In this document: one piece after another, positions 3,722 through 63,104 of the stretch
Numbering within the stretch: the first letter of the stretch is position 1
Layout of the letters: every line of letters begins with the position of its first letter
Source: Deuterostichococcus epilithicus
Taxonomy: Eukaryota; Chlorophyta; Trebouxiophyceae; Prasiolales; Stichococcaceae
DNA: 64,000 bases
Assembly: GCA_033439295.1 (NCBI GenBank)
Contig: JAVTLE010000023.1
Location: 4,252,530 to 4,316,529 of the forward strand
Direction of reading: 5' to 3'
The notes under the pieces: generated by a model
Database searches by the model: none
What the model saw: the letters and a program-made list of their open reading frames with translations, nothing else
Told to the model about the DNA's origin: nothing
Made by a program: the position numbers and the translations under genes

Positions 3722-6700
3722 TCAGGTGTTCTTCTCCAGCCCCGCGAGCGCGGGCGTGAGGTAATTGTTGGAGCGGTCCGGCAGGTGTGCCACCAGCTCG
3801 TAGGCCGCGGCGCCCGGCTCCGCCGCCACCTCGGAGCACACCTCGAAGGTCTTGTTGCGCGCCGCGCCGTCGTGCAGCGCCTGCACAAGCCCGATGCAAG
3901 CCAGGTGAAGCGAAGCTTTATCCAAATCGCAAGCAATGATGCGAGCTGCAGGGAGCGCAGGGAGCTGGGCGTTCGAGGGTTCCGCAGCAACAGCTGAAGG
4001 ACCGATGCAGAGTGTCAAGGCCAGCGGTCCGTTCGCAATCGAGACCTACCTTGAGTGCGACATCCGCGACGTCGGCGCAGGAGATGTCGTGCTGGATGCG
4101 GTTGCCCTGGTCGAAAACCAGCGCCTTGTAGCCGCCTGGTTCCTCTTTCAGAGGCCCTGGCCGCACGACTGTGTAGCCCAGCCCGGTGGCGCGGAGCACG
4201 TCCTCGCCCCGCCTGAAACGAGGAAACCTGAGGCTGACACCAAAACTGACACCGAAACTGGAACCGGAGCGACTGTAGGGCACAATCCACTCGCGCGCAG
4301 CACGTCCTTGCGCCTGACGGCAGCGGGGGAAGGATTTAATTTGAAGACTGAAGCCGATTTTGACGCTGAACAAGTACTGCTTGCAACTGCAAATTGGATG
4401 TGAGACTGGAGAATGGAACCTGAACGCCCGCTTCCTGTGTCCCGCCTGCTCTGCCTGCAGCACGCCCTCGCCCTGTTGAGTTGGCAGCAGCGGCAGCGGC
4501 AGGCTCGGACATTCAGGTGGGCATGGCCTAGCGATCACTGCCCATCCGATATGCGATTCTGCTACAGCGGATGCACTCAGCCTGGGCTGCTTGTGGCCTG
4601 ACGAGTGCATTCAAGTAAGCAGGGTACACAGACCATGGGACTTGGACACATTGCGTTGCGTGAGACCACGCTGCAGCGCACCGCTTGGCTGTGATCATGT
4701 TGCGCCGCGTCTGCCCGGTGAGCCCCGCTCCGACGCAGGAGATCAGCACAAAGTCCGTCTCGGCGCCACCCGGCAGCGCCTTGACCCAGTCGATCTCCAG
4801 CCGGAAGTCGTTCCTGCGGCGGTGCAGGTTCCAAGGTCAGCCCTGCGATTCCGTGTGTGGTCGTCGAAGCAGCAAAGCCGCCTCGGCGCCGCCGGGCGGA
4901 GCCCTGACCCAGTCCATTTTCTGCGAGGGAGGCGCACGTCCGGCACTTGAGCACCAACGCTGTATCTACGCCGCGCTGGCATGTTGATCTCAGGGGTGGC
5001 GCCAGGGATTCCCCTGGCAGTGCTAAGTCTCAGTTGGCTCTCAGCCACAAGTGGATCTGTGGTGCAGCTGCGCTGTGTGCAACTCCTCAGCGCTGGAGCT
5101 GTCGAGAGACACTCACAGCGGGGCAGACGCCTCCTCTGCGCTGACAACCACTGCGCTCTGCCGCGGGCTGCGGTCGAAGCGCAGCCCCATGGAGACGATT
5201 GCCGCAGGGTCCAGGTCCGGTGGGAACGACGGGTCCTCCGGGCGGAAGACGCTAAAGGGCAGCCGCGCCGTCATGAACCCCCGGCGGGTGCTGATGCGCG
5301 CGCCATATGCGTGCCCCTCCGCTGCAGGGTGGGGCAACATGAAACGTGGAATTGATGGAGGGTGATGGTGCTGTGCGAAGAGGAGCCGTGAAACCGCCTT
5401 TGCAGCGCGTGGTGATGTGCGTTGCAAAGGTGGCCCTCCGCTGCAAAGTGCATCACACTAGAAGGGTTAGGGTATCGCCTAACAGAAGCAAATTTGACAT
5501 TGGACACTCCAAAAGCAAGTGACACTGTAGTCTGAAGCTCTGAGCGTGTGCTATGCAGGAGGCTGAGCGAAGGTGCGACATCAGCGCTGCAGCACCGCAA
5601 TGCTGGTTTCAGCCGAAAGAAGCATGTGCCACGGCTGCGGCACCAGTGGCCATGCCAAATTGTCGGTTGTAACCCTACATGCGCCCTGTGGCACAGGCGA
5701 GCGCTGATTGCTGCCCGAATCACTTGCGCTGCAGCGTGCACGAGACGCCGCCGCCAGCACCGGCAGCAGTGGCCTCCCGCCCCAAGCGACCAGCCGCCCT
5801 CCGCAGAGTCTCTGATACTTGGCAAGGCTAGAAAGCAGCGCTTAAAACGAAAGCGCCTCGCTGAGGCTGCCGCTCTTGGAACGAAAGCGCCCTGCAGGCG
5901 GTATGCGCTGGAAATGCACAACCCTGGTGTGGGAGAACGAGCACCACCCCGGCACCTGTATACAGCAGCAGGCTGTAGGCGTTGCCGTCGGCGCCCAGCT
6001 TCAGCACTAAACCCTCTGTGCCGGCCAGGTCGCGCCCCTGCGGCAACTCCACCGGGCCGCCCACCTCCGCGCGCCCGCCGCGCGTGTAGATGACGCCTGC
6101 GCAGGATTTTAGGGTTCTATGCTAAATGGGCAATATGCTAGAAGCACGACAGTTGCTCAACAACTCCCGCATTGCTCCGCAGCCCCCACTGGGCTGCCCG
6201 CCGCGGCACACGGACAGCGCGTGTGGATGGCGCCTGCGCACAGGCACATGCGCCAGTGCAGCAGAGGTCTAGGCCAGTTGAGCATTTGCTGAGCAGCTCC
6301 ACTGGATTGCCGACCTCTGGGCACCCGTTGCGCAACGCAGACGGCGCCATTGCACGTTGTAGGCGGGCTGTGAGTCTGTATTGTCATTGTCGTGATTTTC
6401 GGCCTGGCATCCTCCACACAGGCTTGTTAGATGGCGGTACGATTAGGGAGGGCTGAGCATGGCATGTTGCACAGGGAATTTGCGGCATAGCTGTGGCAGC
6501 GGGCATCTCCGTCTGCCGGGGGACCTGACTTCCTGTTCCGAGGTCAATGGCCTTCACGGCACAGAAGCTTCATGCAGCACCACCACTCACCAAGGTTCAA
6601 ACGTCCGGAACGCCGCAGGGCAGGCGCCGCTCTTCAGAGCTGACAAGGGAAGCACAGGCGGCCGCGCCACGCCACCGCACCACTCGCTGAGGAGGGGCGT

Positions 6701-9575: not shown

Positions 9576-11870
9576 ATGGCGGCCATCACCTCGGACCCCG
9601 ATCCCAGGGTCAAAGCCGTGCTCGCATCCATCAGGGGCATCCCTGACTTCCCCAAGAAGGTGGGTGCCTGTGGGTGATTCCCATTGCCTCAGGCATGATG
9701 CAATGCGTCGGCTCGTACCGTCGAGCCAGCCGCACGGCCGCCTCGCACAGCGGGGTTGGCCGCTCTAGGGAATATGCCGTTCCGGAGGCGGCGGCTGTGG
9801 CGCTCCGTCTCAGGCGAACGAAACCAGCACTCAGCCTGCTCTGCACGCCGTGAGGCAAGGCGGCTGTCCACCTGGGCGTGCTCGCGTCACGTCCTCAGCC
9901 TCCAATGCCTTGCGGCGCCGCCATCAGCGGCGCATTGTCTTCCAGGCCCGTGCCGTGCAAGCAACCAATGCTGCCGAACCCGCCGTTTCCACTTGCCTCC
10001 GGACGTATCCTACAGGGCATCTACTTCTACGACATCACCACGCTGCTGCTGGACACCGAGGCCTTCCGCCATGTCATCGACATGCTCGTGGAACGGTACC
10101 TCGACCAGCGCATTGACGTCATTGCGGGTGCGCTCGCTGTGGCGGCCATTTCTTCGACCGTCAGCCGTCAGTGCAGGCGGGCACGCTGCGCAGGATGAAA
10201 GCGGTCGGGAGCTTGCGGCGCATGGATCGCTGCGATGGCGTTGGCAATTTGCGAATGGCAGCTGAGGCGATGTGATAGTAATCTTGTCGCCTTATTGGTT
10301 GCTGAAGCCGGCGTGCCGCCGTCAGGCTCCCTTCGTGGCTCGCCACCAAACATTGATACAATTGTTCTCAGACGCACGCACATCTGCTTTGCAGGCTTCG
10401 AGGCGAGGGGCTTCCTCTTCGGGCCGCCGCTGGCGCTGCGGCTAGGCATCCCCTTTGTGCCGTTGCGCAAGCCCGGCAAGCTGCCCGGTGCGTGATGGAG
10501 GTGTCGAGCTGGTTGACTGAACCTTCAGGCAAGAATTGCAAGCAGCTGGGGGTCTCTTCTGCGCACCTCCAGGCTCAGCAGATGTGCTCGGATTGGAGCT
10601 TCTTGTGCAGGCGCGAACTCGTGCGGTTCCCCGCGGCCGGGAGCGCTGCGTCACCGCTGCACCATGCATGCAGCCCGGGTTGAGCAGCGCAGGCTCCTAC
10701 CTTGACAACTCACCGACCCTGCTCAGCTCGCAACCTGCACCAACTGGCCTCCCCACCAAAGCAGCAACATCACGCCGCATACCTCCTTAGGCGCGACCAT
10801 AAAGGCGTCGTACGAGCTGGAGTATGGGACAGACGCCATTGAGGTGCACGCGGACGCCATCACGGCCGGGCAGCGTGTGGTGCTCGTCGACGACTTGGTG
10901 GCCACCGGCGGCACACTCGCGGCAGGTGCGCCGCGCAATCCGTGGCTCTGTCCCTCCAGTGGACAAGGGCCTTCAGAGCGGAACAACATCAGCCCCGCCA
11001 AATGTGATGCCGCTCCCGGCCAGACGAGGCGCTGTTGAGCGATGCCTCCAGATTAGCAATTTGGTGCTCATCGATTCCCCATCGAACTAGGGACCTCTGG
11101 CGTCACGCCTTTTGCAGTTCTGGCTCCTGAAACACATGCTGCATAAGCCCTGTGCCTTGCTGCGGGTTGGGGCATGCGGTGCAACTGCTGGGGGCGGCAG
11201 GTGCCGTGCAAGCATGGGTATGAACCATTGCTGCACGCGTGCGGGAAGCTCATGGCGGGGCACTGAAGGGTGGGTGGAGGCAGTAGCAATCCTGCAGTAG
11301 TGTCCCTTGCATATGCACATGTTTGCTGTTTATGCTTTCTGCTTGAGGCGGCGGCAATCCTGCAGCTGCGGCCTTCGATTTGAATATGACCACAAGTACG
11401 CGCATCCTTTCACCATACCGACACGGAGCTAATGGCGCAGTTGATGACGGAGCCGGTGGAAGCGGCAGCAACGCTGTCATACAAGGGTTGCCGCCCATTG
11501 TAAGTTCTTCATCGGTAGATGTAATAACGCAGTATATGCATCTTCCACATTCACAGGCGTGAAGCTGAGGCGGAGCTCGAGGCGGAGGTTGTGGAGGCCT
11601 CAGCCATATGGACTCTACATTTCCTAACTCATGCCCAAAAAATTTGCAAGGCTCATGTGCTGAACCCGCCTTTGCTCAGGTGTGAAGCTCATGGCGGAGC
11701 TAAACGCGGAGGTGGTGGAGGCGGCAGCAATCCTGGAGCTGGCTGAGCTCAAGGGACGTGAGAAGCTGCCCGGCACCGCGCTGCACGCGCTGGCGATCGT
11801 GTCCGAGTACGGTGAGCCTGCGTGGATTTGGCTCACCCAAGAATGGTTTGCCATGACAACACAGCGCTAA
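9576..11870 (+). CDS. APT: Adenine phosphoribosyltransferase
   Basis: Converts adenine and PRPP to AMP and pyrophosphate (purine salvage). Five exons: 9576-9659, 10016-10127, 10395-10487, 10791-10925, 11680-11870, giving 204 aa. Family landmarks appear in order: [20 protein letters not shown] with [59 protein letters not shown], and the PRPP-binding loop [13 protein letters not shown] (about 126-138). No transit peptide is evident, so it is probably cytosolic. APRTs are usually about 180-190 aa. Here the frame runs through a strong donor-like GTGAGC near 11812, after IVSEYG, to a stop at 11868-11870, so the last ~17 residues may instead be replaced by a further exon. The 754-base intron 4 carries four decayed copies of the start of exon 5. 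Start chosen because it gives the conserved N-terminus. Confidence 0.93.
11238..11616 (+). repeat. Four decayed copies of APT exon 5 edge within intron 4
   Basis: True exon 5 begins at 11680 (GTGTGAAGCTCATGGCGGAG). Related blocks lie upstream in the intron: about 11238-11300 (GGAAGCTCATGGCGGGGCAC, then GGTGGAGGCAGTAGCAATCC), 11341-11373 (GAGGCGGCGGCAATCCTGCA), 11423-11478 (GAGCTAATGGCGCAGTTGAT, then GGTGGAAGCGGCAGCAACGC) and 11553-11616 (CAGGCGTGAAGCTGAGGCGG, then GTTGTGGAGGCCTCAGCC). The last keeps an AG acceptor in the same place. All are frame-broken or stop-interrupted. Confidence 0.85.
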
Positions 11871-29000: not shown

Positions 29001-32000
29001 GTGCGGCAGTCCTCCGCGGCTGTGTGCGGCGCCACTGCCGCCAGCCGTCCGCCGCGCGCGGCCCAGCCTGGCGCGGGAGCACACCTGCAGCGCCGCACGC
29101 GCCGCCGCACGGGCCAGGCGCCCATCGAGGGGCACCATTCGATCGTGTTCGGTCACAAACCTTCCTGTCGACCAGTGACTGAGAATGCCCCTGCCGCCCC
29201 GCGCACGCAGGCTGCTACATCCTGCGCCCCTATGCGCACCAGATCTGGGACGCCATCCACCGGTGGTTCGACGAGCGCATCGCCGCCCTGGGCGTGGAGA
29301 ACTGCTACTTCCCGCTGCTCATCACCAAGCAGGCGCTGGAGACGGAGGCGTCGCACGTGGAGGGCTTTGCCGCCGAGGTGCGAGCGGCGCCTCTGGTCGA
29401 GAAGCTCTCCGGGATTCTGTGGTGGATACCACCCGAGGCCCTCTTCTGCATTGTGTTGGGTCTAGTTGCGGCAGCGCTGAGGCTCATCCTGCAGAAGGCC
29501 GGCTGCCGGGAGCCTGCTAACCAAACCCTCAACCCTCAACACTACACCCGGCAGATTGCTTGTGTTGTGCTGAATCTACGTTGGCGTGCCTCAGACGCCC
29601 AGCAGCGCAGGCAGCAGCCGCCAGCAGGAGACACGCAAAGTTGCGCTCGCCTGGCATCAGGCAGTCAGCTGCTCGTGCTACCGTCAGACAAGCCTTCACA
29701 AGCAGGAGACCCATCGCTTGCAGGTGGCGCGGTGACCGAGAGTGGTACCAGCGACCTGGAGGAGCTGGTGAAAAGCGCATCTTTTGGTCGGAACTTGTAG
29801 TATATGGACTCACATCCAGTGAGAGCTGTGTTTGAAAGTCGATCGGCGCAGGTCACCAGCAGCGGCATCAGCGACCTGGGAGGAGCCGCTGGCGATTGCG
29901 ATCCTCTTAGAACGACATGTCGCCCCCATCACCTGAATGCCTCGCTCGCCTGTGCCAGGTGGCGTGGGTCACCAAGAGCGGCACCAGCGACCTGGAGGAG
30001 CCGCTGGCAATCCGGCCCACCAGCGAGACGGCGATGTACCCCTTCTATGCGAAGTGGATCCGCTCGCACAGGGACCTGCCGCTGCGGCTCAACCAGTGGA
30101 ATGCAGTGCTGCGCTGGGAGTTTAAGCACCCGACGCCCTTCATCAGGCATGCTGCTGCCTTCCCGCTGTGCGCACACGAGCATGGGCCCGGACGGACCAG
30201 CCTGCCGGTGTGACCAGCTGTGGCGGATTTGTATCGCATGTGGTATTGCGCAGGAGCTTGGGGTTCCTGTGGTGGAAGGTGCGCACGGGGTTCGAGACAG
30301 GCATAGGCGGTCTCTCAGACACACGTTGAAACCATCTTGAAAATATGACCTCAACGAAGCATGTAACAAGCTGCCATGCGCCGTGCAGGAGCCGCGAGTT
30401 CCTGTGGCAGGAGGGTCACACCGCGTTCGAGACGCGCGCGGAGGCGGTGACGGAGGTGCTCCAGATACTGGACCTGTACGCCGGCATCTACCAGCAGCTG
30501 CTCGCCGTGCCCGTGTGCCAGGTGCAGCTCTGTTTCTGCAGCATTCATGGTGGTTGGACAGGCTGTGCCGAAGGTTTTGCTGTGCTTTTGAGAGGCTGTG
30601 TCGAAGCCTCTTGATGGCGGCTGCGGCAAGCTGGACTGCCTGATCGGGCGCATGATACCTATGAGCGGCAGATGTCAGGGGAAGCCACGAGCCTTGGCAG
30701 CAGGCTCTGCCTCACTTCAGTTCAGCCATGCATCATCGGTGGTCACCTACTGCCGGGGATGCCGTCGCGCAGGGCAAGAAGAGCGAGAAGGAAAAGTTTG
30801 CAGGCGCTGAGTTCACCACCACCGTGGAGGCCTTTGTGCCCTCCACCGGCCGCGGCATCCAGGTAATTGAGTCACCTGTGGGTACACCGACTGTTGGTTA
30901 CCCCGCCATCGCACCACCTGGCCATGGTTGGCGAATCTGTGTGCCTGCCCAGGTGCCGAAAGCTGGCTCGACCTGCTTGTCGTATTGGGCGCGACTTGCA
31001 GCTGGGGTTGGGCGTTGCCTCGCAGAGGGAGCAAGCGGAAGAACATGGACATCAATTTGGAGTGGATGCATCCTTGGTTGCGCGCAGGGCGGCACCAGCC
31101 ACTGCCTGGGCCAGAACTTCTCCAAGATGTTCGGCATCCAGTTCGAGACGACGGACAAGCAGAAGGCATTCGCGTGGCAGAACTCCTGGGGCTTCACCAC
31201 CCGCAGCATCGGCGTCGCCATCATGGTGCATGCCGACAACAAGGCGAGTGCTTGGAAATGTTAAACAACTCTGTTTCCGATGAAACCGCCGAAGTCACGG
31301 AGCTCTTAGCCTGCTGTGGGTGAGGGGGTGCTGGGTCATGTATCACAGCCTGGACAGCCGCCTGAAACCTCAGCATTGCCATTATTGTGTGACAGTGCAC
31401 AGTCTCGTTTCGTGGATGACTCATCTCACATCTGGCATGGCACTGCAGCGACATCTTAGTAATTGCCGTGTGCATGCTGCAGCAGCTGCCAGCCAGCTCT
31501 TCTCAGCCCAGCTCCGGGCCGCCCCCAGATTGGTGAACAATTTGCACTGTCAGGAGGTGCACCAGCCGACCCCTGAATCGTCTTTTGCATCCCGCAGGGC
31601 ATGGTGATGCCGCCGCGGGTGGCGCCGGTGCAGGTAGTGGGCATCCCCATCCCCAACGCCAAGCTGTCTGCCGAGGACCGCGCCGCGCTGACCGACAAGG
31701 TGAAACCCGAAGCCTGATCTCTCAGGCCAGCTCTCCGCCGAACGTGCCGTGCGGACGACAACAGCCGCTTCGTGCTTCAGTTTCAGCGCAGATCAGCTGA
31801 TCCAGCCTCTGCGCAGTTCACAGCATGCTGTCAGTGCCTGTGGCTGTCATGCGGCACTCACTGGATCTGGAATTTTCCCTGGGCTGGTGAAGGATCGAGC
31901 TGAACGTTTCTGGCAGCTGGAAACTGCCGAGAATTCAATGTTGCAAAATCTTCCACGCAGGTGGAGGAGCTGGCGGGCGCGCTTCGAGCCGCGGGCGTGC

Positions 32001-34144: not shown

Positions 34145-37100
34145 ATGCCTGCGGCTGATATGGCGGCTCGCAAACTAGAGAAGGATGAGGTGGGCCTGAT
34201 GCGAATGGTGCCCTATTCAGCAACTGCAGTGCGACACCTCCATCGTGCACATCACCCAGTCTGCATCGACAGCAGCAAGATGATCAACGTCGCAGCAGAT
34301 TTATCTGGCCGAACGGCTGGGGGGTTCAGCTCGGCATGCACCAAGACTCAGCGCCAGGGTGGCAGCGGGCATGTGTCAGCCATGAACATCTGTGCGCTCA
34401 GAAGCCTTGATACAAAAAAACCACATAACATCCCGTCGGCATCACGCCTGCATGCGGCTCGCAGCTGGAGGAGCGCATACAGAGCCTAGCCGCCAGAATC
34501 CGCGCCGCACCACCAGGCGATGAGCTGCTGCCGCTGGGCGAACGGGCCGACGCGCTCCTCAGGTATGGCAGACCATAAGTGCATGTTGCAGGACGTTCGA
34601 ATGCAGGAGTGTGCTCAGAACCGCCAAACCGGCATGTGACACGTCTCATCCGCGGCCTGCGGCGGCATGGGTGCGGGCGCTGTTCATCATGCGCTGTTTG
34701 GCAGGCCTGCACAGGGTGGCGACCCTCTGCCCAGCCGCCGCTGGACTGCAAAGGATGACCTGCAGTACCTGTCGCGGCCGGCCTGCCCCCGTTCGGCAGG
34801 TTCTGAGGGCGGCTGCTGCGTCAATGCAGGCTTGCACGACTGCTGCGGGGCATCCCTGCGGCGGAGTCTGAGCGCTGGGCGCTCAACGGCCTGGACCCCA
34901 CCCACCTAGCGATGCTGGCGCTGAAGGACGCGCAGCGGGGGGCAGCCGCGGCGCCCAGCGACAGCGGCTTCTTGCGCCGCAAGGTGAGCCTGTTCAGGTC
35001 GTCAGACCAGCTGCAGCTGGCGTTGGGTCTGTCTGCGGTGCAGCATGATGCAGCGGCGCTGCGGCCGCAACTCCGACCTGCATAGCGATGTCACGTTCAC
35101 GCGTGGGCGCAGCCGGCATCTTGCATCAGGCTGAGCTGACAGGGTCTCTAGGCAGTGTCCTGCCTGTGGCTGCCAGCAGCCCCCTGCACGAGGCGACCGG
35201 ACTGCACCAGTTCTCTCCCTCAGGCACGATCCCCGGTCCTGTCCGAACACAGGGAGATGCGCACGTGTCGCTGGAGCAGTACCAACCGGCTCACGAGGCG
35301 TTCCTGGAGGCGCTCTCAATCGACCCCGCAGATGCGGAGGCTGCGGAGGGGCTGCGGGCGGCGTCGGCGGCGCTGGCGGCGGGCAGCGAGGCCGCCGCCG
35401 CGGCGCTGCGGTCGCCCACCTCGCCGACATCGCCCGCGGCGGTGCAGAAGCGGTGTGCAGAGTTGACCCGCCATCGGTGCTGCGGTGCAGCCTGGCGGAG
35501 GTGGCTGTTCGAACAGGCAGCTGCTCTGCACCTCCTGCAAGCATGGTCACAGGACTGCAATTCTGCTCGGGCGGTGACGGTGCAGCCTCCCTGCACGACT
35601 TGTGCCGCCTGCCAAATTTTTGTAGGCGACGCACCGCGGCATGGGGCGACTTGGACGACGGTGGGTGCCCGCCGTCTGCAACAGAACCCTCTTTCTGCTG
35701 CAGTCACCGTGCGGTGTTTCTGCCCGCCAGACCCCTTGCACGCTGTGCACTGCGGCGCGCGGCGATGTGGACTTGGAGCGACCGCAGGCGCCTGGGCCCT
35801 TTGTTCTATTGAAGATTTCACTCTGTCTGACGCACCGCCTGCTGGAATGTGAACAGGCAGCGCACAGCGGCCCGGGGCGATGTGGACGACTGGGAGTGCC
35901 CGCTGTGCCTCAAGCTGCTGTGGGAGCCGGTGGCCACGCCTTGCGCCCACATGTGAGATTTAGGGTTAAGGGTTTGCGCCCGCATGTGAGCTCCTGGCAG
36001 AGCCCTGAGCCCTCAGCTGGACCGCTGCAGATATTGGACTGTGCGTGGAGCGCTGTGCGCGGTTCAAGCGTCCACGGACGTGCTTCGGCTCGCCCGGAGG
36101 GCAATGCCTCAAGAGCTGGCGGCAGTCTCGGCATGGTCACTAGGCTTGAAAACAGTCGCCCTTCGCGGCTTTGCTGCTTCGACTGCGACATTTGCTGCTT
36201 CGACTGCGACACAGCAGGTTGCTATATTTCGCGATGCGAACGCAGGTTTTGCCGCCCGTGCTTCCAGCGTGCCGGCGACCATTCCTCGAAGTGTCCCTCC
36301 TGCCGCACGGTGCGCCTGCTGTCCATCCAGGGACTTGGGTGAGAGCAATCAGTTTGTCAGCCCATGCGGCGCTCTGCCCGAGCCGCCTTTCAGCGGCGCT
36401 TCTGCAAGCCCGCGGCAGAGCCCTGCATACGTGCTGCCGGCACAGGCCGCAGGCTCACTCAGCGTCACACAGCTGTGCCTCTCTGCTGCTGCTGCACGGG
36501 CCGATGGGCCAGCTGATCTGACCTTTCCACAGGCGCAGCACCACCTGCTGCTGCCTCGCCGTTTCAGGGGTGGTCAAGCGTCTCCCAAATGCCTCCAGCC
36601 CTTTCCCGCAGGTGCTGCACGTGGGCCGCGCCATCCCGGTGCTTACGCAGGTGCGCCGCTTCCTGCTCAAGGCCTTCCCCGACGAGTACGCATCCCGCGG
36701 CGCGGAGGAGGCCGCGGCGCCGGCTGGCGACGGCGATGCGCCGCTTCCGCTGTTCGTCATGGCGACCATGCTGCCGGGTGCGCGCGCCTGACAGGCAGGG
36801 AACAATGCTAATCAATTCCAGCCCGCAGACAGCGCTCGGCCTCTGCGGCCGTGCGGCAGGGGCGGGTTCAGCAGTGGCTGCAGCCTCTGCTGCGCAGTGA
36901 CTGCAGCAGCGGCTGTTGCAGCGGGTTTAGCAGCATGTTTCAGACTGTGACCGAACTGCCAGGACGCCTCTGATGGCGGTCGGCCAGTGCTACCTCTAGC
37001 TGACAAGCCGGCAGCATCCGGCATGTTCGGCCATCATGCTTCCCCCCGCAGCTGGCGCTGCCATGCCGCCAGGCTCACTGCGCAATGTGTCCCTTTCCCC

Positions 37101-49992: not shown

Positions 49993-52900
49993 TCAGAACA
50001 GCGGGTAGCTTGGCGGGAAGGCCTTGCGAATGCGCGACCGCTCAGCGCGCGCCCAGTGCGCCCAGCCCAGGCGCTCGAAGAGCGCCGCCCGCTGTCGCAG
50101 GACGTCGGCCTTTGGCGCCTCGTCAGCCGCCGCCGCCTGCGCCGCCAGCATGAAAGGATGTTGATGTTGGCAGAAATCCAAGTTTGGGGGCGCTGGAAGG
50201 AAGCCAGCCTTGTGAGCACTGGCTGTGACGTGTCCAGGGCAATGCCTTGCCAGGCCGAGGCGATCAGGCTGGCGAGTCACACGACCCTCCGCATGCACGA
50301 GGCCGCACAAGACGACCGCCGGCGTGGAGGCGCCTTGCAAACCACGCCTGGACGGTGTTGCAGGGCACGGCCTGAATAACCAGTCAGGAATACCAGGTGC
50401 AATCGAGTCGTACATTGAGAGTCAGCTTGTGCTGGTTATCTGCCCACCTTGTCCAGGGCACGCAGGGCGGATGCCAGGCGGCCGGCCCGCGCCTCCCGCC
50501 GCGCGTGCAGTGCCGCATGGGCCTTCTCGGTCGTGTCCGCCCACTTTCGCAGCTCCCTGCGGCCACATGGAGGTGTGACTTTGGCAACGTGCACATTTGT
50601 TGAGAGAGAGTCGAGAGAGAGTCTCGGGGCGCCTGATGACACGCAGATCAGGGCAAGACAGGGCCATCTTACCCAGCGTACGAGTACTGTCTCTTACTGA
50701 CTTGTGAGATGTTCAGTGCAGCCCCCGCGTCCAGGCGACGACGCAGGGCGTGCAGCTGCAAAGGTCGTGGACAGTGCTTGTTTGCTGCGCCCACCTGAAG
50801 GCCTGCTCCACGGCGCCATCGTCCGCCGCTGCGGACGCTTCCTGCTTCCCGCCCTCTGCCGCCGCCGGCCGCTCGGCGGCCTCCGCCCCGGGCTGCTGGG
50901 CTGCCTCTGCCGCCGGCTGCTCGGCGCCGTCCGCCGCAGGCTGCGCCTCAGCGGCAGGCTCCGCCGCCGCGGCCGCTGCGTTCCTGGCGGAAGCGCCTGC
51001 TTCCTCTGCATCCAGCAGCGCCGACACCTTGGCCGCCAGCGCCGCAGTGAGCGCCGAGCGCTGCTCCTCGAACTCCTTTTTGCGCTTTGCTGCCCCCGGG
51101 CCCTCCTCTGGGCATTTCTGCGCCAGGAATCTGCGCGAGCAACAGGTACAACTTCTGAGAGGAAGAAGTAGACGCTTGGCGCACTCATCTGCCTATCTGA
51201 CGAGGCTGGCTGGAGAGGTTGACAGGCCTGGCCACGTACAAGTCCTGTGTGTGTCGCATTGGCAACCCTGCTGTCACGCTCGGCAACATGCTACCAAGGC
51301 CTGCTACAAAAGGCTGCATGGCGGGGTGCAACTGATGCAGCAAACTGCAGACACCCTCCATGAAGACAGTTGTGTCTCTGCAATGGACGCACTTGGCAAG
51401 AGCGTCGCTGTCGATGGCTGCAACGATAGCGTCGGCTGCCGCCACCACGTTCTGTGGCGAGGCAACACCCGCGCCACCGTCCTGCGCAATGCATTTCGCA
51501 GAATCACGATGGTCTGCTGGCCCCTGGTGGCCTGGAAACTATGCTCCAAGAGTAACCCTCCCAAGGCGCATGCGGCAGGTGCTCATGATGGCAGGGCTTG
51601 GACTGAGCTACAGACACGCTAGCCTCGCAATGGCTTGGTGTGTGTGCCCGGAGGACGTCACTGAATGGACAGGGCACCCAGCACAGAGCACATTGGATCC
51701 GGCAGACAGTGTAGCTCCGCACCTCCGGCTTGGCGGCCGCCAGGCGGGTGAGCCGCTCCTGCAGCAGCGGCAGGTGGCCAGGGTGCTGCTCCAGCAGCTG
51801 CTGCAGGAGCTGCTCGTAGTCGCGCCTGTCGCCCTCCTCGTCCGTCTTCAGGCCCTGTACGCAAGAGCAGGAACCCACGTCAGGCCGTGTAGCAAAAGTG
51901 GTCATTCGTGGTTGCGTCTGTTGCCCTCCTCGGCCATCTCGAGGCCCTGCAGACAATGGCAGGGACCGTGTGAGGCCCTGCAGCAAAAGCAGGGTCTCGT
52001 AACCCCACTCGTCCGCCTCACCCCTGCAGCAGCTCAGGTCCGCGTCAAGTAAATGTCTCAGGCAGGTGTCACGAAGCCCACCGCCCCGACGGCGCACTCC
52101 GAATGCGATGTGTGGAGAGCCCCAGCCTGAACGCGCCCCACCTTGAGCAGTGCCACCTTGGCATCACGCACTGCGTCGTCTAGCCGTGCGGCGACGCCCG
52201 GCTTGGCCTCAGAAGGGTCCGCCTCCTCGTCGCCGCCCTTATCCTTGTCGTGCTCCTCCTTCTTGGCGGGGACCAGGTACCGCAGCGGGATGGACCTGCG
52301 CAGGTCATCGTGGGTGAGCTTTCGACGATCCTGTTTCCGTCATGCAGCCATCTTCGACCCCCTGTCCCCGTGTCGTGCTCCTCTGTCTCGGCGGCCACCA
52401 ACTGGCGCAGCGAAGGGGACCAGCGCAGACAAGAAGGGCTCGAGTTGCGATCGATCTTGACACGTTGGCCTGGGTGGAGATATAGCGGGCTACCAGAGGG
52501 GTATTCTGGCGACGCCATGGTGGCCAAGTTGCACCGGCCCGATGTCGCAGTTGTGTGCTGTTCTGCATGACGCAGTTGCCCGCCCAAGATCCAAAGCTGC
52601 GGGCAGCTGAGCACCGCAGGCGCCTGCGCCTGCGGTGCCAGCCCAGAGCTGCAATGCTGACCTGCTTGTCGAAGGTCCACAGCAGGACTGGGCTTGGCAA
52701 CCCAGACTCAGCGACAGGCTCCAGCCCTACTTCAAAACCCTAAAGACGGCACGCACCCGGGCGCCTTGCCGCTGGCGTCGAAGGCGTTGCCCGGGCTGCC
52801 TCCGGCGGCGGCGCCGGCGCTGGCGCNCGGCTTGGCCAGCGCGACCGCCCCCGTCAGCAGCCGCCCCGCGGTCGCGTCCTTCGGCAGCTTATCCTCTGGG

Positions 52901-55900
52901 ACCGGTCCCACGAAGATGGCGGCACGCTCGCCTGTGCTGCACACTAAAAGCTTTCAATTCGTGGGCTTGTTTCGGAGTACACCGAGTCCTGTGCCCACGC
53001 AGCGGGCAGGGAGCCGTGCACAAGATGCCTGCCACAGGCACATGAGAGGGCGACAAGATGGAGGTTTGGGAAAGGATGCCAGATAAGAGTCGGCAGATAT
53101 GGGTACTGTGCGCCGTCCTAAATCCGTAAGGAATTGAAAGGCAATCAAAAGGGCACGCCTGGCGCTAGACTCTTATCCTTCAGCGGCTTGGAGCCCGTCA
53201 GCGAGTCGCTGTTGGTGGCGTACACGGGCACTGTGATGGCCTCTATCTTCTTCTCCACCTCCTGTGGCACCATAGGAATGTTTTGAGAGGTTACTGAGGC
53301 AATTATTGCCCTTCGTGAAGGCTGAAGCGGGGCAGGAAGCCGGTGGCAGATCCGTTTCTTCACGCTCATGTGGCGCAGGAATGAGACACGGGGCTAAGCA
53401 GCAGAGCATGCCAAGAGACTGCGTGAGGTCATGACTCGTGAAAAGAAATCAAGCAACTGGTGTCATGGCGCGCAGCGTGAGGTCGCTTGCGCTGGCAAGA
53501 ACAAGTCACGGCGTCAGAGCGGGATTGGTTCTTCTGTCAGAGCGGGATTGGTTACAGGTGCTGATGCCGCAACGGTCCAGCAGTAACGAGACCGTGCATG
53601 CACTTGCGCTGGGCAGAAGGACATTTGTCCATATGGCTGACGAATGGTCAGGTGCAAAGCCGAAGCCTCACCAGCGGCTGGTGGCGCAGCTTCTCCAGCA
53701 GCGCCGGGTCGTCGTGGCGCAGAAAGGCTCGCAGCGTGAGGTCGCCCTTCTTGACGTCAATGGCTGCTGGGTAGATGTCTGCGACGCCCAGCAGCTGCTT
53801 GTTTGCGTCGTGCACCATCACGAACTGCGCCTCCAGCACGCCGTCGTACACGTACCTGCAGGGAGAGAGTGCAACTTGAAACCTTCACAGAAACATTGAC
53901 TGTACCGTGGCCGCCAGTCTATGTCAAGATTGAGCGTGGCCAGCCGCCACCGGGCAACATGGCCATATGAAATTCTCTGACCTATTTTCGATTGTGGGAG
54001 ATCTGGCGCTAATACTTGCCATCGTTACAAGATCAGGCCGATGCTGCTGCAGCTGGGTGGGCAGACGCTGCCAGCAAGCGATGTATGCAGGAACCCAGCA
54101 TGCTTCAGAGCTGTGACAGTGCGAAGCAATGCTCGGCCGTCGAGGCTCTTCTACAGCAACGAGCCCAGAAGGGCGCGTGCTGCTCCCGCCCTTTCGCAAA
54201 TACAATGCTTCCCGAGAGACGCAGTAAGGCTCAGACCCTTAAACTCCGCACCCGTTCATCATGGGCAGCCGCGGCGTGATCTTGCCGCCTTCCTGCAGGC
54301 TGAGCTTGTAGGTGAGCGTCAGCCCGTGCGGCGTGCGGCCCCGAGGCAGCGCGTCCCGGGGGCCCTCCAGCGGTGCCAGCTCCGCCGCCGCCGGCCGCAG
54401 TGGGATGAGCAGCGCCTCCAGCTTGGCCTGCGGCGCCAGCTTTTCCGGCCGCAGCGGCGCCCGCAGCTGCAGCTTGACGTTGCCTGCAGGCAAGAGGGCG
54501 AGACGACGAGTCTGTCTCGAGGCAAGGAAAATTTCCAGCGTCGGGCCGGCACCTGCTGAATGTCTGTCGAGAGGGTCCGAGTGCTGAGACACACTTGGTG
54601 CATTAAGGCACCTGCAGTGCCATCAGGGCACTAGGGCAAGGCAGCGCGACCGGGAGCTCGGGTGGCGTGCACTGGCTAAGAGGAGTGCCCGCCTCCTAGC
54701 TTGCGAGCACGAGTCATACCCTTACACTGCGTGCCTGATGCGGCGCAGCGCATGCGGCATGGGCAGCACCTGCGGAGCCGTCTATGAAGGCCGACGCCGG
54801 CTCGGCGGCCACTCCGTGGAACTCAATCTCCTGCTCCAGTTCAGAGTCCCCGCCGCTGCTCCAGAACTGCGCCGTGGTGATCTCCAGGGTGGCGCCCGCC
54901 ACCACCTGGCAGGGAATGATCGTCAATCTAAGGCCAGGTGAAAGCAAAACAAGAAACGGCACATACACATGGTTTGGAGGTTGATGCTTGATGTTGCCTG
55001 CAGAGGCTCAACCCTCGGCACCTTGGTTGCCGGTCGTCAGTGGCGGGTGGGATGACCTTTCCACTGGATTGGCGTTCTCAAGGGCTCTGGAAATGCCCAC
55101 GGCAACATGTGCTGACAGCCGGAGGTTTAGACACAGTCAATAGGCGAACAGGACGGACAAATTACATTTTTCACTGCAATTGCACATGTCGCTGTGCCTT
55201 TCCAAAACCCTTGAGGAGGCGGTTTCAGGTGGGTACTGGTATTCAGCTGTCGTCAAGGCTTCTCCTAGGTCCCAGTGCCAGTGCTGTCCGCGGCACATGG
55301 GCGACTGGTCCGCAAACGTAAAAATGTCGTCAACGTGTGTACAGTGGAGCATGCCAACCAAAGTGATCTGCTGCATCTGTGCAGGGCATTGCCCAGGCAT
55401 GCAGGTGCCCAACACCCTGAGCCAACCTTGAAGGTAGTGGAGTGGCGGCCGTGGCCCGACAGCGCAGCGTGCGCCGTCTTTTCGAGCGTCGTGTGCCGCG
55501 TGTGCGGCAGCATCTGCGTCGCCCGCAGGAAGAACATCTGCGGTGCAGGGAGACACAGCAGTCACGTCCCCACCTGTGTGCAGCGCTGCAAGCTGGTGCC
55601 GAGAAGCAATATCCATGCCATTCACGCCACGAGTCACAGAGGCGGCATCAGCTTCGGACCGGAACCTTGCCGTGCTCAAGAGCACAGACCTTGCGAGGCT
55701 TCATGCATGTGTGAAAGGCACGGAGAAGCTCTCACCCGGGGCGTGGGGTTATCGCCGGCAACGCTGCGCAGCTCGGCCCAGGTGGCGCCCTCCGGCACCG
55801 CAACGAACCTCCGAGTCTCTTTGCCTGCAATTAGGTTAGGGACCGCCTAGATCGAAGCCTTTGAAGCCTACCAAAGGCCTCAGCCAAAAGTGGGAGTGGG

Positions 55901-58900
55901 TGCGGAGCGTGTCCGTCTGAGACCGCTGCCTGCCAAGGCGGCATAGCACTCTGGACGCGAATTCACTGTCAAACAACGCCTCATGTTTCTTGGGTCGATT
56001 AGAGCGTGTTGTGCCAGGGAAGTGTCAGAACAGCAGAATGGCAGTAATACAGCATGAAGGAGCGCGCCGCGCGGCCGCACATGCGGAAAGCACGCATGAC
56101 ATTGCGGGCTGGTGGACTCAGGGACACTCTTTCCGCCCTCGATGTCGGAATTGGGAGAGCAAGCAGCAGCTTCGCACCTGGGCTGAAAGACTGGCTTCCG
56201 AGGCGCGCGATGCAGTCGCCACCGGTTGCCGTGGTACCCACCGACTGCGGCTTCACGACTGTCACCGGCACCCTACAGAAAAAAGATACCATCTCTGTAT
56301 TCCTCAAATACTGTCTCTATATCTTTCAGATACTATCTCTTATTGTAGTAGAGCAGCCCTTGGCGCTCTGGGAATTCAGGACTGTGTCTCGTTCTGCCAC
56401 GTCGAAAAGCCTAGCCACAGCTGCAGACTTGGGAAGCCCGGCATAGGATTGGGTAGCTTCGGTGCATTGTTTGCAAATTCGTTGCTGTAGATGCCACTTG
56501 AAGAAGTTCAACAGGTGGTCATGCCAGGGACTTCAGCATGTGCAGTGGCTGCTCACACAGCAGCGGAGAAATAGTCTGTCAGCCAAGTGAAGAAAGTGGA
56601 CCAGACATCATCCGGTGTTGCGGACCACTCGGTACCTTGTGCATCCACCTTGATGGGCATGGCCATGCTGAAAGCATTCATGGCCATGCTGACGGCATAC
56701 CATGCTGGAGCAGGCCCATGATGTTGCGACAGCATGGCCATGCTGTCGCAAATCCACACGCCATCGACCCCGCACGGTGATCGAGATCCCAGACAGGCAG
56801 CGCCGCTCTGGCTTGACAGCTGCCACCTCACACTGTCATGTTGACGAAACAGGTCTTTGCTGAGGTAAGGTCCTCAATTTGGGGCTCAGATCCCGCACCT
56901 AAAGAGCGGGCCGCGCCAGGGTGCAGAGGCGTCCTCACCCGTGACCTCGCCATAGTGCAGCCCCTCCGGCAGCTGTGTCGCGTTCACCTGCGGCATGCAT
57001 GCATTGCATTGCAATGTGTGCACCCATGCGATCATCGGGGAGCCTTGAAGATGCCCAGTCAGGAAAGGTCAGCATGCCAGAACAGGCACATGCGCAGGGC
57101 GGGCCCAATTGCAAACGGGCCTATCCCAGGCGCCGGCGACCTCGCCTCAGACACCGTCTCGAGGGTGCGACCCTTGGACGCAAGCAGCAGCGCCGGCAAC
57201 CGCGACAGCATGCCAGCAGACAAATGAGATGAACGGCGGCGGTGCGGGCAAAATCGCTGCCTAGATACTGGCTCGCACCTCGATCTCGAAGGTGCGGCCG
57301 CTGGACGCGAGCAGCAGCGCCGGCGGCGTCGACAGCCATGGCGCGCTGACCTTGAGCGTGATGCGGTCCTCCATGATCACCTTTTCTCCCTTGACGTCCG
57401 CATCCTGTCGGTGCACCAGCGTTGCACTCGACTGGACATGCGAGCTGGCTGACTCGAGACACTGCAGGGCTTTGAGACATTGTGTCGACTTTGGCTTCTA
57501 GTTCCGAAGGTTCTTCTGGTTCTGGAAGATGTCTCAGAGGCCCATCGAGGAATACGCTGCGCGCTCCCAGCTACCATGCGCGGAAGACCTGCTGCTGACA
57601 CTAGGAAGCCGGAGGCTGCAACCTTCAGCCAGCCGCCACAACACTGGTCCCAGTCGAACCCGTGCACGAAGCCGAGCTGTGCTTGACGTGCAGTGGAGTC
57701 TGCTGCACGGCATGCAGCACTTGCCGCGATAGAATGAGCTTTTGAAATGATCGTCAAGGCAGCCCGTCCGACCCACCTCGTGGAAGGTCGGGTGGACGGC
57801 AGTTGTGAAGGTGACGCGGCGCACGGTATCCAGCGGCTCCCGCAGGTAGATGCCCCGCCCGGCCGCGGCGCCGTCCGGGCGCCGCACCCGCACCGCATAG
57901 CGCACGTCCGGCGCGTCGGCGTCAACCGACTTTTCGAGGTACTCGAACGCTTTGTGCACCTGATTCCGTGATACAGCAAGTGAAGGGTCGTCGTCAGGGC
58001 CGGGCAGGCCTGCCGGGCTTGGTGGAGCACCCGTGGTGCCGCGCGGCTGTTGTGCCATGCCGCCTGGCTCGAAAGGCTTCTCATTACTGCCGCATTTGGC
58101 GTGACCTGCTGCCGGAGGGTGCACGGACACGCTCTGTCTGAACAGGGAGTCGAGAATTTGCCTACAAACTCATACCGGCAGCGACAGGACTGGCAGACAG
58201 GAATCTCCAATGCAATTGCACAGGAGCGCGCCTGCAGCAGGCCGCAGCCGTAGGTGAGTGCGGCATCTGGCGCGTCGCCGCCGACCGGCTGGGCAGTGTT
58301 CTCTAGCGCCCGCCGCACCCTGTGGTGAAAATGCGGCTCTGCTTGCCCTCGAGAGGTTCGGCCAGTCGGAGGAGGCAAGCCGCCATCTATATGTTCACGA
58401 CTTACACGCGCAGTGCTGGAGCGCACGGACGTGTTCAGCAGATTGGCACATGCACAGCGACACGCCTTCCACTGCCAGGGCGGTAGACGGCAGGCGCCCA
58501 ATCTCCTTTCCTACCGCCGCGGCCGAGCAGAAGGACGTGCTGCAGATAGTGGAGTTGTGCTGCAAGCCGTCACGCTCACCTGTTAGGCGAGTAAGTTTGG
58601 CCGATGGCCTTGAGCCCCGACAGCACCAGCGCCACACCGCCGGCCGCGCAAGGCGACGCCATTGAGGTACCGTTCATCAGCTGCCGTGCCGCCATGGTCC
58701 ACTGCAGCATTCAGCAGGCCGACTGCTCAGGTGGAAGCGGCATGCCGGCTTGAACAGGTGTGTCTGCTTGTGAGAGGATTGCTTGCGAGACATAAACTGA
58801 ATTTGTGTCCAGCCGAAAGGGGGCACCCATGCATAAGCATGACCAGGCGCCGCCACTGCCAGAAGGTGCGCCAGTGCTGCACAGTGCAGCCGCACCACGC

Positions 58901-61900: not shown

Positions 61901-63104
61901 CAACCGCCAATTTCCCCAGGACCTGGAAAAGACCTGCTATTGCGACGAAATCAGTCCGTCTGTGCTCCACTGTCCAGGCTGTGGCTCTGCAGGCACGTCA
62001 GCATCTGTACATGGCTGCGACGCACCGCAATCGAGCAGCAGGTTGTGCAAGCGTGACTATCCTGCAGTGCACTGCCGCTGTGGAGATTCCTTGCACAATG
62101 CAGCATTATCCACATCGCAGACGCACAGGTGGGCTCTGTTTGCGGCGGTGCTGGTGGCATCCGGCGCTTTCAATAGTTGGCTAGCAAGGCGTCACGTCAG
62201 CCACAGGCACAGGAGGCCAAAAGCGCACCTGAGGGGTTCTGCCAGTCGGGGTTGACATGCAGGCTGCAGCTGCCCTTGGTGCCGGCGAGCGTGCCGTCCT
62301 CGCCGAGCGACTGCACCTCTGAGGTGTCGACGTCGCCGCTGCCTGTGCCGTCCTGCCATGCGGCAGACGGACAGTTGCCGTCGGGACTGGCAATGTGAAC
62401 AGCAGTCGACAGATCCAGGTCAAGCACCGAGCCTACTCAACCGACCTGCACTCCCTTGTTCAAAATCACCCGTGGCTGTGAGTATCGAAGTTCAGAGCCG
62501 GCACCATGCTCAGCTCAGGGTGCAGCCCTGCTCAGCTTTCTGGCCATCTGTCAGTTGCACATGCACGCCGCTGAACTGCCATGACAATGCACATGCCCTG
62601 CTCTCAGGATCGCAAGTGCAGCTATCAAGGGAGTTTGAATGTAGCCAGGAGGGAGCCTTACGAGGATGTCGATGATCTTTGGGCGGCCGTCAGGCGTCGT
62701 CTGCAGGCCCACTGCTCCGGGGTCGACGCCTGTGTCGAAGATGGCCACCACAACATCGCGGCCATCGTACTTCGGGTGCGCCTGCAGCGGCAGAGTGAGT
62801 TAGTAAGCCTGAGACACCTTGGGACATCTGCACGCCTGTTCGAACGATTGGACATCTAAAATCATGTGTGCATGCCGCCGCATGCATGCTGCGACGGCTG
62901 TCAGTGCGCCCAGAACTCGGATGCAGCATGGCTCATCGTCCGAGTGCCAGTACTCACCTTGAGGTATTCCAGCGCGCCAATTTCCGCCTTGGGCATGGCG
63001 CCAGCAAACGTCGCAGCGCTGTCGACGGGTTCTGGCGGCGCCGCGGCGCCAGCGGCCGTGGCGGACGCGGTGTCTGGACCCCGCCCAGCCGCGCCGTCTG
63101 ACAT
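49993..63104 (-). CDS. TPP2: Tripeptidyl-peptidase II (subtilisin-like serine peptidase)
   Basis: Giant cytosolic exopeptidase removing tripeptides downstream of the proteasome. Twenty-nine exons keep phase and give 1344 aa: 63104-62958, 62781-62662, 62352-62229, 61805-61648, 61359-61269, 61098-60942, 60628-60477, 59999-59869, 59564-59362, 59109-58995, 58701-58580, 58319-58232, 57959-57777, 57404-57279, 56987-56899, 56272-56238, 55824-55736, 55537-55427, 54905-54770, 54483-54252, 53855-53672, 53261-53159, 52931-52757, 52295-52142, 51854-51723, 51481-51393, 51130-50795, 50556-50448, 50136-49993. Catalytic Asp in [11 protein letters not shown] (D65), His in GSHGTHVAG (H293), oxyanion Asn in SSAGNAGP (N391), Ser in NGTSMASP (S479); spacings agree with human TPP2 (44/264/362/449). 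C-terminal motifs match too: [40 protein letters not shown]. Exon 27 adds an Ala/Glu-rich insert. Three GC donors; base 52827 is N. Confidence 0.96.
51855..52030 (-). repeat. Up to four units of TPP2 exon 25 acceptor edge in intron 24
   Basis: The true exon edge on the plus strand is TCGCCCTCCTCGTCCGTCTT then CAGGCCCTGTACGCAAGAGC. At 51907-51952 it recurs as TTGCCCTCCTCGGCCATCTC then GAGGCCCTGCAGACAATGGC. Around 51996-52030 is a weaker copy (CCCACTCGTCCGCCTCACCC). The intronic half (AGGCCGTGTAGCAAAAGTGG; AGGCCCTGCAGCAAAAGCAG) recurs twice more, so this looks like a degenerate minisatellite centred on a splice site. Confidence 0.78.
52365..52435 (-). repeat. Decayed copy of TPP2 exon 24 start within intron 23
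   Basis: Plus-strand GTGTCGTGCTCCTCTGTCTC, then GGCGGCCACCAACTGGCGCA, parallels exon 24 (TTGTCGTGCTCCTCCTTCTT, then GGCGGGGACCAGGTACCGCA). The true exon encodes [19 protein letters not shown]. The copy is upstream in transcription and includes the acceptor side. Confidence 0.82.
56724..56751. repeat. 28-base perfect palindrome in TPP2 intron 15
   Basis: TTGCGACAGCATGG is followed directly by its exact reverse complement CCATGCTGTCGCAA with no spacer. Related ATGGCCATGCTGA words lie at about 56660-56695. Confidence 0.9.
57150..57213 (-). repeat. Decayed copy of TPP2 exon 14 end within intron 14
   Basis: Downstream of exon 14 in transcription. The copy reads CCGGCGCTGCTGCTTGCGTC then GGTCGCACCCTCGAGACG; the true exon end (57345-57279) reads CCGGCGCTGCTGCTCGCGTC then GGCCGCACCTTCGAGATCG. 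Here it is the donor side that is copied. Confidence 0.85.
58908..58931 (-). other. G-quadruplex-capable tract in TPP2 intron 10
   Basis: On the transcribed sense (minus) strand there are four G-runs of 6, 4, 5 and 6 separated by single A residues. They lie about 60-85 bases downstream of the GC donor of exon 10 (58994). Confidence 0.7.
59828..59852. repeat. Degenerate interstitial telomere-like tract in TPP2 intron 8
   Basis: The plus strand reads CCTGACCCTGACTCTAACCC TAAC, successive degenerate units of CCCTAAA-type telomere repeat. It starts about 17 bases past the exon 8 donor. Confidence 0.5.

Follow-up and report, generated by a model that had tools for sequence, protein, structure and literature searches.

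Introns that contain copies of adjacent exon sequence raise the question of whether they were created by exon duplication or were lengthened after they already existed. To our knowledge, the lengthening of introns without mobile elements is poorly understood. The question arose from the initial annotation of a 64,000-nucleotide stretch (hereafter the window) of Deuterostichococcus epilithicus DNA, which reported such copies and pointed to duplication of exon sequence as a source of introns. Our analysis instead favors a reading in which recurrent duplications of ~120 bp across existing splice junctions lengthen introns, and we place its probability at roughly 60%.

Sample and gene models

The sample read comprises ~0.29 Mb of the 46.8 Mb genome, with gene models from a home-made HMM. 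The five window genes were checked with Pfam, and the models give the same outer gene limits as the initial annotation (3722 and 63104). Chance expectations were derived for 309 introns from the window (78 testable introns) and 16 stretches of 10 kb, whereas a larger set of 409 introns came from the window and 23 other stretches. A further test of the intron-end resemblance expected from AGGT geometry covered 378 introns. Introns with a flanking exon shorter than 40 nt were excluded from the chance, length, and geometry tests, and those with one shorter than 20 nt from the intron-exon BLAST. Stretches L001-L003 and the plastid-like L027 were left out of the gene sets.

Copies of flanking exons in the window

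Coordinates were obtained for 13 window introns, a subset chosen for earlier matches, and all 13 gave copies. The copies are in three introns of an HCF173-like gene, one of APT (four copies), four of ProRS, one of a LON-domain gene (two copies), and four of TPP2, as follows (offsets in nt).

6186..6233, - strand: HCF173-like intron 6097-6757, copy of downstream exon +1..+48, offset 137, 35/48 identical, pseudo-acceptor GCGCAG
6293..6333, - strand: HCF173-like intron 6097-6757, second copy, downstream exon +14..+54, offset 250, 30/41
4868..4924, - strand: HCF173-like intron 4814-5116, downstream exon +13..+69, offset 123, 46/56
4270..4314, - strand: HCF173-like intron 4213-4681, downstream exon +3..+47, offset 104, 33/45
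11559..11607, + strand: APT intron 4 (10926-11679), copy 1, downstream exon +3..+52, offset 123, 41/49
11427..11476, + strand: APT intron 4, copy 2, downstream exon +7..+56, offset 259, 38/50
11340..11368, + strand: APT intron 4, copy 3, downstream exon +34..+62 only, offset 373, 25/29
11245..11297, + strand: APT intron 4, copy 4, downstream exon +5..+59, offset 439, 42/53
29845..29896, + strand: ProRS intron ending at 29958, downstream exon +3..+53, offset 116, 45/51
29724..29770, + strand: ProRS intron ending at 29958, second copy, exon +1..+48, offset 235, 40/47
30263..30311, + strand: ProRS intron 30168-30388, downstream exon +10..+60, offset 135, 38/49
32286..32349, + strand: ProRS intron 32066-32408, downstream exon +1..+64, offset 123, 48/64
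33267..33307, + strand: ProRS intron 33143-33355, downstream exon +17..+57, offset 105, 35/41
35753..35785, + strand: LON-domain gene intron 35453-35867, downstream exon +1..+36, offset 115, 28/33
35637..35675, + strand: LON-domain gene intron 35453-35867, second copy, exon +1..+39, offset 231, 31/39
57157..57209, - strand: TPP2 intron 56988-57278, copy of the upstream exon, -58..-6, offset 127, 44/53
52351..52412, - strand: TPP2 intron 52296-52756, downstream exon +9..+69, offset 125, 46/61
51906..51946, - strand: TPP2 intron 51855-52081, downstream exon +1..+41, offset 92, 33/41
53467..53486, - strand: TPP2 intron 53262-53671, 20-nt match to upstream exon -74..-55, offset 259, 19/20, weak and off the junction

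Some copies pass for exons in gene calling, and annotators should be warned of this. The ProRS copy at 29724..29770 was miscalled by the gene finder as an exon (29724-29767), and the second copy in the LON-domain gene overlaps a stretch called as exon 35626-35660. The initial annotation listed two introns of this gene (termed RING-LON), but both copies occupy a single intron; the earlier count probably arose from the resemblance of one copy to a small exon.

Own-exon copies compared with chance

Direct copies of an intron's own flanking exons far exceed chance. At scores of at least 40, 26 were observed among the 309 introns and 0.05 were expected (upstream exon, 8 versus 0.03; downstream exon, 18 versus 0.02), and at scores of at least 30 the counts were 10 versus 1.0 and 25 versus 0.8, respectively. 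In the same introns, the reverse complement of the upstream exon gave no matches at any score, and that of the downstream exon gave three at a score of at least 30, two at 35 or more, and none at 40 or more. For exons at a distance of one, two, three, four, and five introns, upstream edges reached 40 in 3/538, 1/470, 0/410, 0/352, and 0/294 cases, and downstream edges never did. On the opposing side, when 458 introns were compared with all exons by BLAST, 39 matches were to flanking exons but 94 were to non-flanking ones (E<=0.01); these 94 were weak, in both orientations, and drawn from many more comparisons.

The presence of flanking-exon copies within introns of D. epilithicus is confirmed, with at least one copy in 33 of the 409 introns (~1 in 12). 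As in the original description, many copies in sampled introns reach the splice site. Copies with AG or GT edges are present.

Position, offset and added intron length

For positional analysis we used 34 anchored copies, 24 of the downstream exon and 10 of the upstream exon, although one of these 10 (window 29768) is an artefact of the miscalled ProRS exon, which is itself a copy. Raising the threshold for this set from 30 to 32 lost L006:5375, L010:8430, and L009:1791, and the anchoring filter removed L005:8479, L013:4013, and the match in window intron 53262-53671. Downstream-exon copies begin at 0.39-0.87 of intron length and upstream-exon copies end at 0.13-0.63. Most copies thus lie toward the exon that they match, indicating that an existing junction was copied.

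The offsets are narrowly distributed, from 82 to 151 with one exception at 193, and are unbiased modulo 3 (13:12:9). Two scans made without the copy list give the same picture. An ungapped scan, in which one array yields several pairs, found 35 exon-intron pairs at 80-139, four at 20-79, and two at 140-199; a gapped scan, whose 20-79 bin is unusable owing to self-overlap at short shifts, found 33 clusters at 80-140, two at 141-200, and none at 480-540. Arrays of several copies have offsets near multiples of one unit, such as 118, 238, 359, and 462 nt. Between copy and junction there are 31-116 nt of other intron sequence in 30 of 32 copies and more in the other two; the downstream matches L005:8479, L013:4013, and L013:9483, as first modelled, were dropped from this measurement because the match reaches the intron end or begins deep in the exon. 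Offset and exon length are correlated over the 34 copies (0.61), including one 531-nt exon with the offset of 193.

Introns with a copy exceed those without one by about one unit in length. Median length is 232.5 without a copy (n=376), 358.5 with one (n=26), 532 with two (n=4, including a 191-nt 'intron' that results from the miscalled exon at 29768), and 754 with three or more (n=3). Shortening one-copy introns by 90 or 117 nt brings them into line with the copy-free introns that reach 90 nt or more (p 0.40 and 0.61), and shortening them by 0 or 55 nt does not (p 3e-6 and 0.014). The histogram of intron length has no visible periodicity.

We propose that exon-intron junctions already in place have been crossed time and again by tandem duplications of ~80-140 bp, most often ~120 bp. 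Each duplication would add about one unit to intron length and place the duplicated exon half (25-87 nt, with splice-site consensus) inside the intron. Splicing presumably skips this copy, which could then decay neutrally while the original junction remains in use, and several rounds in some introns would produce arrays. The initial event may have been a plain tandem duplication, for example by fill-in of a staggered break and end joining. Since the conserved exon acts as a ruler, old duplications can be recognized, counted, and sized even after the intron has decayed.

This proposal does not account for the confinement to junctions, for the size ruler, or for how seldom the intron half is recognizable. 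Duplication by break fill-in would be expected to occur independently of gene structure, and the sample departs from this expectation; the named repair mechanism does not predict confinement to junctions, which counts against junction tandem duplication. If the process is truly confined to junctions, mutation would here be following gene structure, unpredicted by standard break-repair models, and any set of related strains would allow the process to be dated and tested.

Intron half of the duplicated unit

The intron half is recognizable in 8/34 copies at p<=0.06, where ~2 are expected by chance. For copies with an identity of at least 0.8 the count is 4/22, whereas simulated tandem duplications give 0.53-0.81, and a second simulation of recovery gives 0.38-0.95 depending on identity class. 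This shortfall relative to simulation also counts against junction tandem duplication. Plain age was rejected as its cause, because even simulations that include both small and large indels recover more intron halves than the sample shows.

An alternative that we consider unlikely is splice-site-anchored copying, wherein a junction-sensing process, possibly involving spliced or spliceosome-bound RNA, places a copy of only the exon edge, together with some five bases of the splice site, at a set distance. Most high-identity copies indeed carry no intron half. Mean identity falls to background ~5 nt beyond the donor, and before the acceptor it drops from 0.62 in the last 5 nt to 0.33-0.43 from -6 to -45, part of the latter stemming from a few full-unit cases. 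The top-scoring copy (60 nt, 92%, L016:8356-8725) has no significant homology past the acceptor consensus (p 0.62, 0.16, and 0.14). In the cases searched, the spacer resembles nothing else in the locus or genome. Ten comparisons beyond the two for the intron half, which took as sources for the spacer or the sequence beyond the copy the upstream exon, intron start or end, the other exon, the exon beyond the copy, or a reverse complement, gave only 0-2 matches at p<=0.05 per 24 or 10.

However, introns gain ~90-117 nt per copy, whereas the copy by itself would contribute ~55 nt, and anchored copying has no known counterpart as a mechanism. Moreover, the intron half is clearly duplicated in some introns. 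Homology covers the full unit in L016:6780-7710 and L018:5624, and the 66-nt units of L011:6684 share 92% identity, intron half included. In the window, the intron half is recognizable in TPP2 intron 51855-52081, and intron sequence flanking the fourth APT copy resembles that before the true acceptor.

As a tentative and less likely extension, we put forward a junction-tied duplication process, with a ~120-bp ruler and a limit near 140 bp, that copies exon edges into the neighboring intron and would be a major way in which introns of this lineage grow. That the intron half is so rare hints that the copying itself may sense the splice site, perhaps via RNA.

Repeats elsewhere in the sample

Ordinary duplication or slippage might occur everywhere and be visible only at junctions, since there the exon side is conserved. 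Copies do decay without codon constraint, with selection on the exon side only, and most intron halves are unrecognizable, as very old intron-intron repeats would be. A simulated uniform process in which both sides decay nevertheless yields 0.87 visible intron-intron and 0.79-0.85 visible intergenic pairs per visible exon-intron pair. For 35 exon-intron pairs, ~30 intron-intron and ~28 intergenic pairs would be expected, but only three of each were found, all within junction arrays or one satellite. Beyond that satellite and the junction-array repeats, the sample holds only junction pairs and a few exon-exon pairs. Because no independent repeats of the same size were found in introns or intergenic regions of the sample outside the junction arrays and the satellite, the alternative in the initial annotation, ordinary slippage tolerated only in introns, is not well supported, and we doubt this explanation.

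Intron creation by AGGT duplication

Tandem duplication of an AGGT-containing exon could create an intron that consists of the duplicated exon segment. This model predicts that the 5' end of the intron resembles the beginning of the downstream exon and that its 3' end resembles the last part of the upstream exon. Among 378 introns, the former resemblance was found in 3 versus 3.3 expected at scores of at least 8, 1 versus 0.7 at 10, and 1 versus 0.0 at 12; the latter in 6 versus 1.7, 3 versus 0.7, and 0 versus 0.3, respectively. The slight low-score excess at 3' ends, the one intron start at 12, and the AG or GT edges of intronic copies are in favor of creation, as was L013:9483-9586, first modelled as a 104-nt intron with a copy near its 5' end. 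With an enlarged training set, however, the L013 intron became 369 nt long, and its 3' end then lay 134 nt away from the copy. The predicted positions are generally not seen, and the other intron sequence that separates the copies from the junction is likewise at odds with the model. Thus, the exon-edge duplication reported initially stands, but its role in creating these introns is very improbable.

Decay and coding constraint of the copies

Identity is ~90% or more in 6/34 copies and 70-89% in the rest, so the 'active or recent' process initially suggested is weakly supported. Mismatches fall at codon positions 1, 2, and 3 at 15.6, 17.4, and 22.0%, and there are 6 stop codons per 607 codons and 27 gap events in 34 alignments. 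Codon constraint on the copies is rejected as more than slight by mismatch positions and stop codons. Single copies that differ only at third positions exist, such as L016:6780 (0/0/5), and a third-position excess among copies with an identity of at least 0.8 is largely absent from older ones.

Selection on the copies as decoy or alternative exon edges appears highly improbable. Some are exon-like enough to be called exons, and the pseudo-acceptor AG is retained in 13/22 downstream copies; this fraction is probably about what decay at the same identity leaves, and the slight codon-position constraint, stop codons, gaps, and unbiased offset phase all argue against function.

Introners are marked by families of similar introns across genes and by terminal inverted repeats or target-site duplications of 3-9 bp. 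Although such elements are known in algae (PMC9860276, in excerpt), we give almost no weight to an introner-like or other dispersed family, because an all-versus-all BLAST of 458 introns gave only seven weak pairs of 19-44 nt, and whole-genome DNA searches with the 1-kb stretches L016:8100-9120 and window 10780-11820 found no other match at E<=0.01.

Comparison with known systems

The pattern is undescribed in the literature surveyed, namely titles and abstract beginnings, mostly of open papers, and the available portion of the Coccomyxa genome paper does not mention it. Introners, as excerpted in PMC9860276, likewise represent an intron-changing process in algae, but no intron family is shared here. 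Staggered-break fill-in makes small tandem duplications, with overhangs of 43-50 nt mentioned in the excerpt of PMC8355091. It resembles our cases in producing short direct duplications without a dispersed source, whereas that text describes neither a tie to splice junctions nor a ~120-bp ruler.

Rogers-type AGGT intron gain, along with studies of internal gene duplication (Rogers 1989, Gao and Lynch 2009, and Hellsten 2011, as cited in the excerpt of PMC4974935), also concerns exon sequence that is duplicated in tandem and has splice-site edges, but the copy positions here depart from the prediction of the AGGT model. A precedent for the proposed process, a tandem duplication across an intron-exon boundary, is described in the same excerpt for a potato RNA-dependent RNA polymerase gene, where the unit, as proposed for D. 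epilithicus, joins the 3' part of an intron to the 5' part of the downstream exon. That case is one recent event yielding a new intron with a cryptic donor, whereas D. epilithicus has dozens of cases in which the copy is within an existing, longer intron, along with a mirror class on the donor side.

Sampled sequence and gene models

The genome comprises 46.79 Mb in 21 contigs, and the window (C19:4252530-4316529) has a G+C content of 61%. A 97-kb contig looks like a plastid, with 30% G+C in the 8 kb read. Genes were modeled with a purpose-written, small, self-trained HMM gene finder that is strand-symmetric and includes splice-site states. The first training set consisted of the window and sixteen 10-kb stretches, each at position 1,000,001 of one of sixteen contigs. 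Seven stretches (like all those sampled outside the window, given L-numbers) were then added, yielding 24 sequences, 294 kb and 519 predicted introns, or 0.6% of the genome. In this enlarged set, the predicted internal exons and introns have medians of 126 and 224 nt, respectively. All models are predictions made without RNA support, and copies of exon edges mimic exons. Most donors among 458 sampled introns are GTGCG-like, about 5% being predicted to start with GC, and most acceptors read YGCAG.

The five window genes named in the initial annotation were all retrieved. Pfam matches back APT (PF00156), ProRS (three domains) and TPP2 (Peptidase_S8 and TPPII_Ig-like-1). A protein with NAD-binding and CIA30 domains is compatible with HCF173, a name taken from the initial annotation. 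The gene described as RING-LON retains its LON domain, but Pfam found no RING domain in the predicted model. Other window features are as follows.

11995-22192: about 10 kb in which the first gene model predicts no gene
12-24 kb: G+C of 0.57-0.58, below most of the window
17213-17582: palindromic decamer CGTGCGCACG in clustered copies

Introns carry copies of their own exon edges

The best-supported reading is that duplications of about 120 bp would recur across existing exon-intron junctions, each lengthening the intron concerned. In 309 introns with both flanking exons of at least 40 nt, each intron was compared by alignment with 90-nt exon edges, both those flanking it and those of other exons. 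The proposal that introns hold degenerate copies of adjacent exon sequence was borne out, as scores of at least 40 were reached 8 times for upstream exons (0.03 expected from distant exons) and 18 times for downstream exons (0.02 expected). The reverse complements of these edges gave no match at this score in the same introns, and three at a score of at least 30, all to downstream exons. At scores of at least 40, exon edges farther along the same gene matched four times in total, always one or two steps away; those three to five steps away never matched. In the enlarged set, 33 of 409 introns (8%) carry at least one copy. Besides the window, 10 of the 23 other stretches have copies anchored near a junction, and the effect is not peculiar to the window. 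One copy-dense region (L016:4815-9119, C15 near 1.005-1.009 Mb) has six anchored copies in neighboring introns, among them a four-copy array in front of one exon.

Identity to the source exon is 0.70-0.80 in 12 of 34 anchored copies, 0.80-0.87 in 13 and higher in 9, so the majority are not recent. Mismatches fall at codon positions 1, 2 and 3 in 84/539, 93/536 and 118/536 cases, where the small third-position excess is the expected contribution of the exon's own silent changes. The 607 whole codons examined in the ungapped set include 187 nonsynonymous changes, 102 synonymous changes and 6 stops. Thus, with only weak codon-position bias, the copies are much like dead sequence. In ProRS (29724-29767) and the LON gene (35626-35660), the gene finder called an exon that is almost certainly a dead exon copy, and such copies probably give rise to false small exons in annotations.

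Offsets and intron lengths

Offsets were obtained from a scan for local direct repeats that is independent of the copy list. They were sharply clustered in the sample scan, which was redone on 294 kb.

Exon-intron pairs by offset (294 kb)
20-79 nt: 4
80-139 nt: 35
140-199 nt: 2
200-279 nt: 5
280-419 nt: 3

A gapped rescan, whose 20-79 row is unusable, gave 33 exon-intron clusters at 80-140, 2 at 141-200 and 4 at 200-260, and at a control distance of 480-540 it gave no exon-intron and two exon-exon clusters. Of its four exon-exon clusters at 80-140, three (L011, L015 and L021) look like copies miscalled as exons. The three intron-intron pairs at 80-140 all lie within junction arrays, and the three intergenic pairs all come from one satellite-like array in L022. 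Two of the repeats are described here.

L022:8295-8915: the intergenic satellite-like array, with A-rich units (AAAGAAAGC...TATAGGGC) spaced near 72-78, 104 and 146 nt
L019:6094-6153 and +361: 60-nt direct repeat of 88% identity, one member called intergenic and the other intron

Median intron length is 232.5 nt with no copy (n=376), 358.5 with one (n=26), 532 with two (n=4, including a miscalled 191-nt window intron) and 754 with three or more (n=3). After subtraction of 90 or 117 nt, one-copy introns match copy-free introns of at least 90 nt (p 0.40 and 0.61), whereas they still differ after subtraction of 0 or 55 nt (p 3e-6 and 0.014); subtracting 140 nt gives p 0.09. Therefore, about one whole unit has been added, which exceeds the exon copy alone.

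The intron half of the unit

If a junction were simply duplicated in tandem, intron would be copied along with exon. The intron half is clearly duplicated at five places.

L016:6780-7710: array
L018:5624
L011:6717: 66-nt units, 92% identity
Window 51855-52081
APT: before the most distal copy

Across all 34 anchored copies, just 8 have a significant intron half (p<=0.06). A related test gave 7 of 34 at p<0.05, with a combined p of 8e-4 that becomes 0.10 when the four strongest are removed. Among copies of at least 0.8 identity, it is significant in 4 of 22, whereas simulations, which like the others here rest on simple mutation models, predict 0.80-0.95 by identity class at the gap rate nearest that observed and 0.53-0.62 with added large indels. 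The highest-scoring copy (L016:8356-8725, 60 nt, 92%) has no significant homology past the acceptor consensus. Intron halves resemble other parts of the same locus no more than by chance, and a genome search with two stretches found nothing like them elsewhere. Intron halves may change unusually fast, or many copies may have originated as little more than an exon edge.

Visibility of repeats and intron creation

Confinement to junctions might reflect visibility, because exon-intron repeats remain recognizable longer when the exon side is conserved. We simulated same-size duplications at random positions, with both copies decaying in introns and intergenic DNA and only one at junctions. If ages are assumed to spread uniformly to a maximum of 0.6 substitutions per site and junction duplications to be tolerated, visible pairs relative to exon-intron pairs were 0.87 for intron-intron and 0.79-0.85 for intergenic. 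For 35 exon-intron pairs, about 30 and 28 are thus expected, but the sample contains no independent pair of either kind at 80-140. A wholly ancient burst would reduce these expectations, and copies of 85-92% identity argue against it.

The initial annotation had proposed that tandem duplication of exon sequence containing AGGT creates introns, which predicts an arrangement opposite to that of the copies found. Of 34 anchored copies, 24 derive from the downstream exon and 10 from the upstream exon (the reference for one of these, at window 29768, is a miscalled exon). Expressed as a fraction of intron length, copies of the downstream exon have their start at 0.39-0.87, and many follow a pseudo-acceptor and open at or close to exon +1. 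Copies of the upstream exon have their end at 0.13-0.63, many stopping at or close to -1 before a pseudo-donor. In an anchored comparison of 378 introns, intron starts showed no overall excess, one intron standing out, and intron ends showed a slight excess at low scores only.

Comparison with known systems

Searches of titles and abstract openings in the open literature gave no account of this pattern. Short tandem duplications are known to arise by fill-in of staggered breaks (PMC8355091), but this leaves the junction confinement of the present copies unaccounted for. Potato has a recorded case of one junction-crossing duplication (PMC4974935). There the duplication made a new intron, whereas in D. 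epilithicus existing introns would be lengthened.
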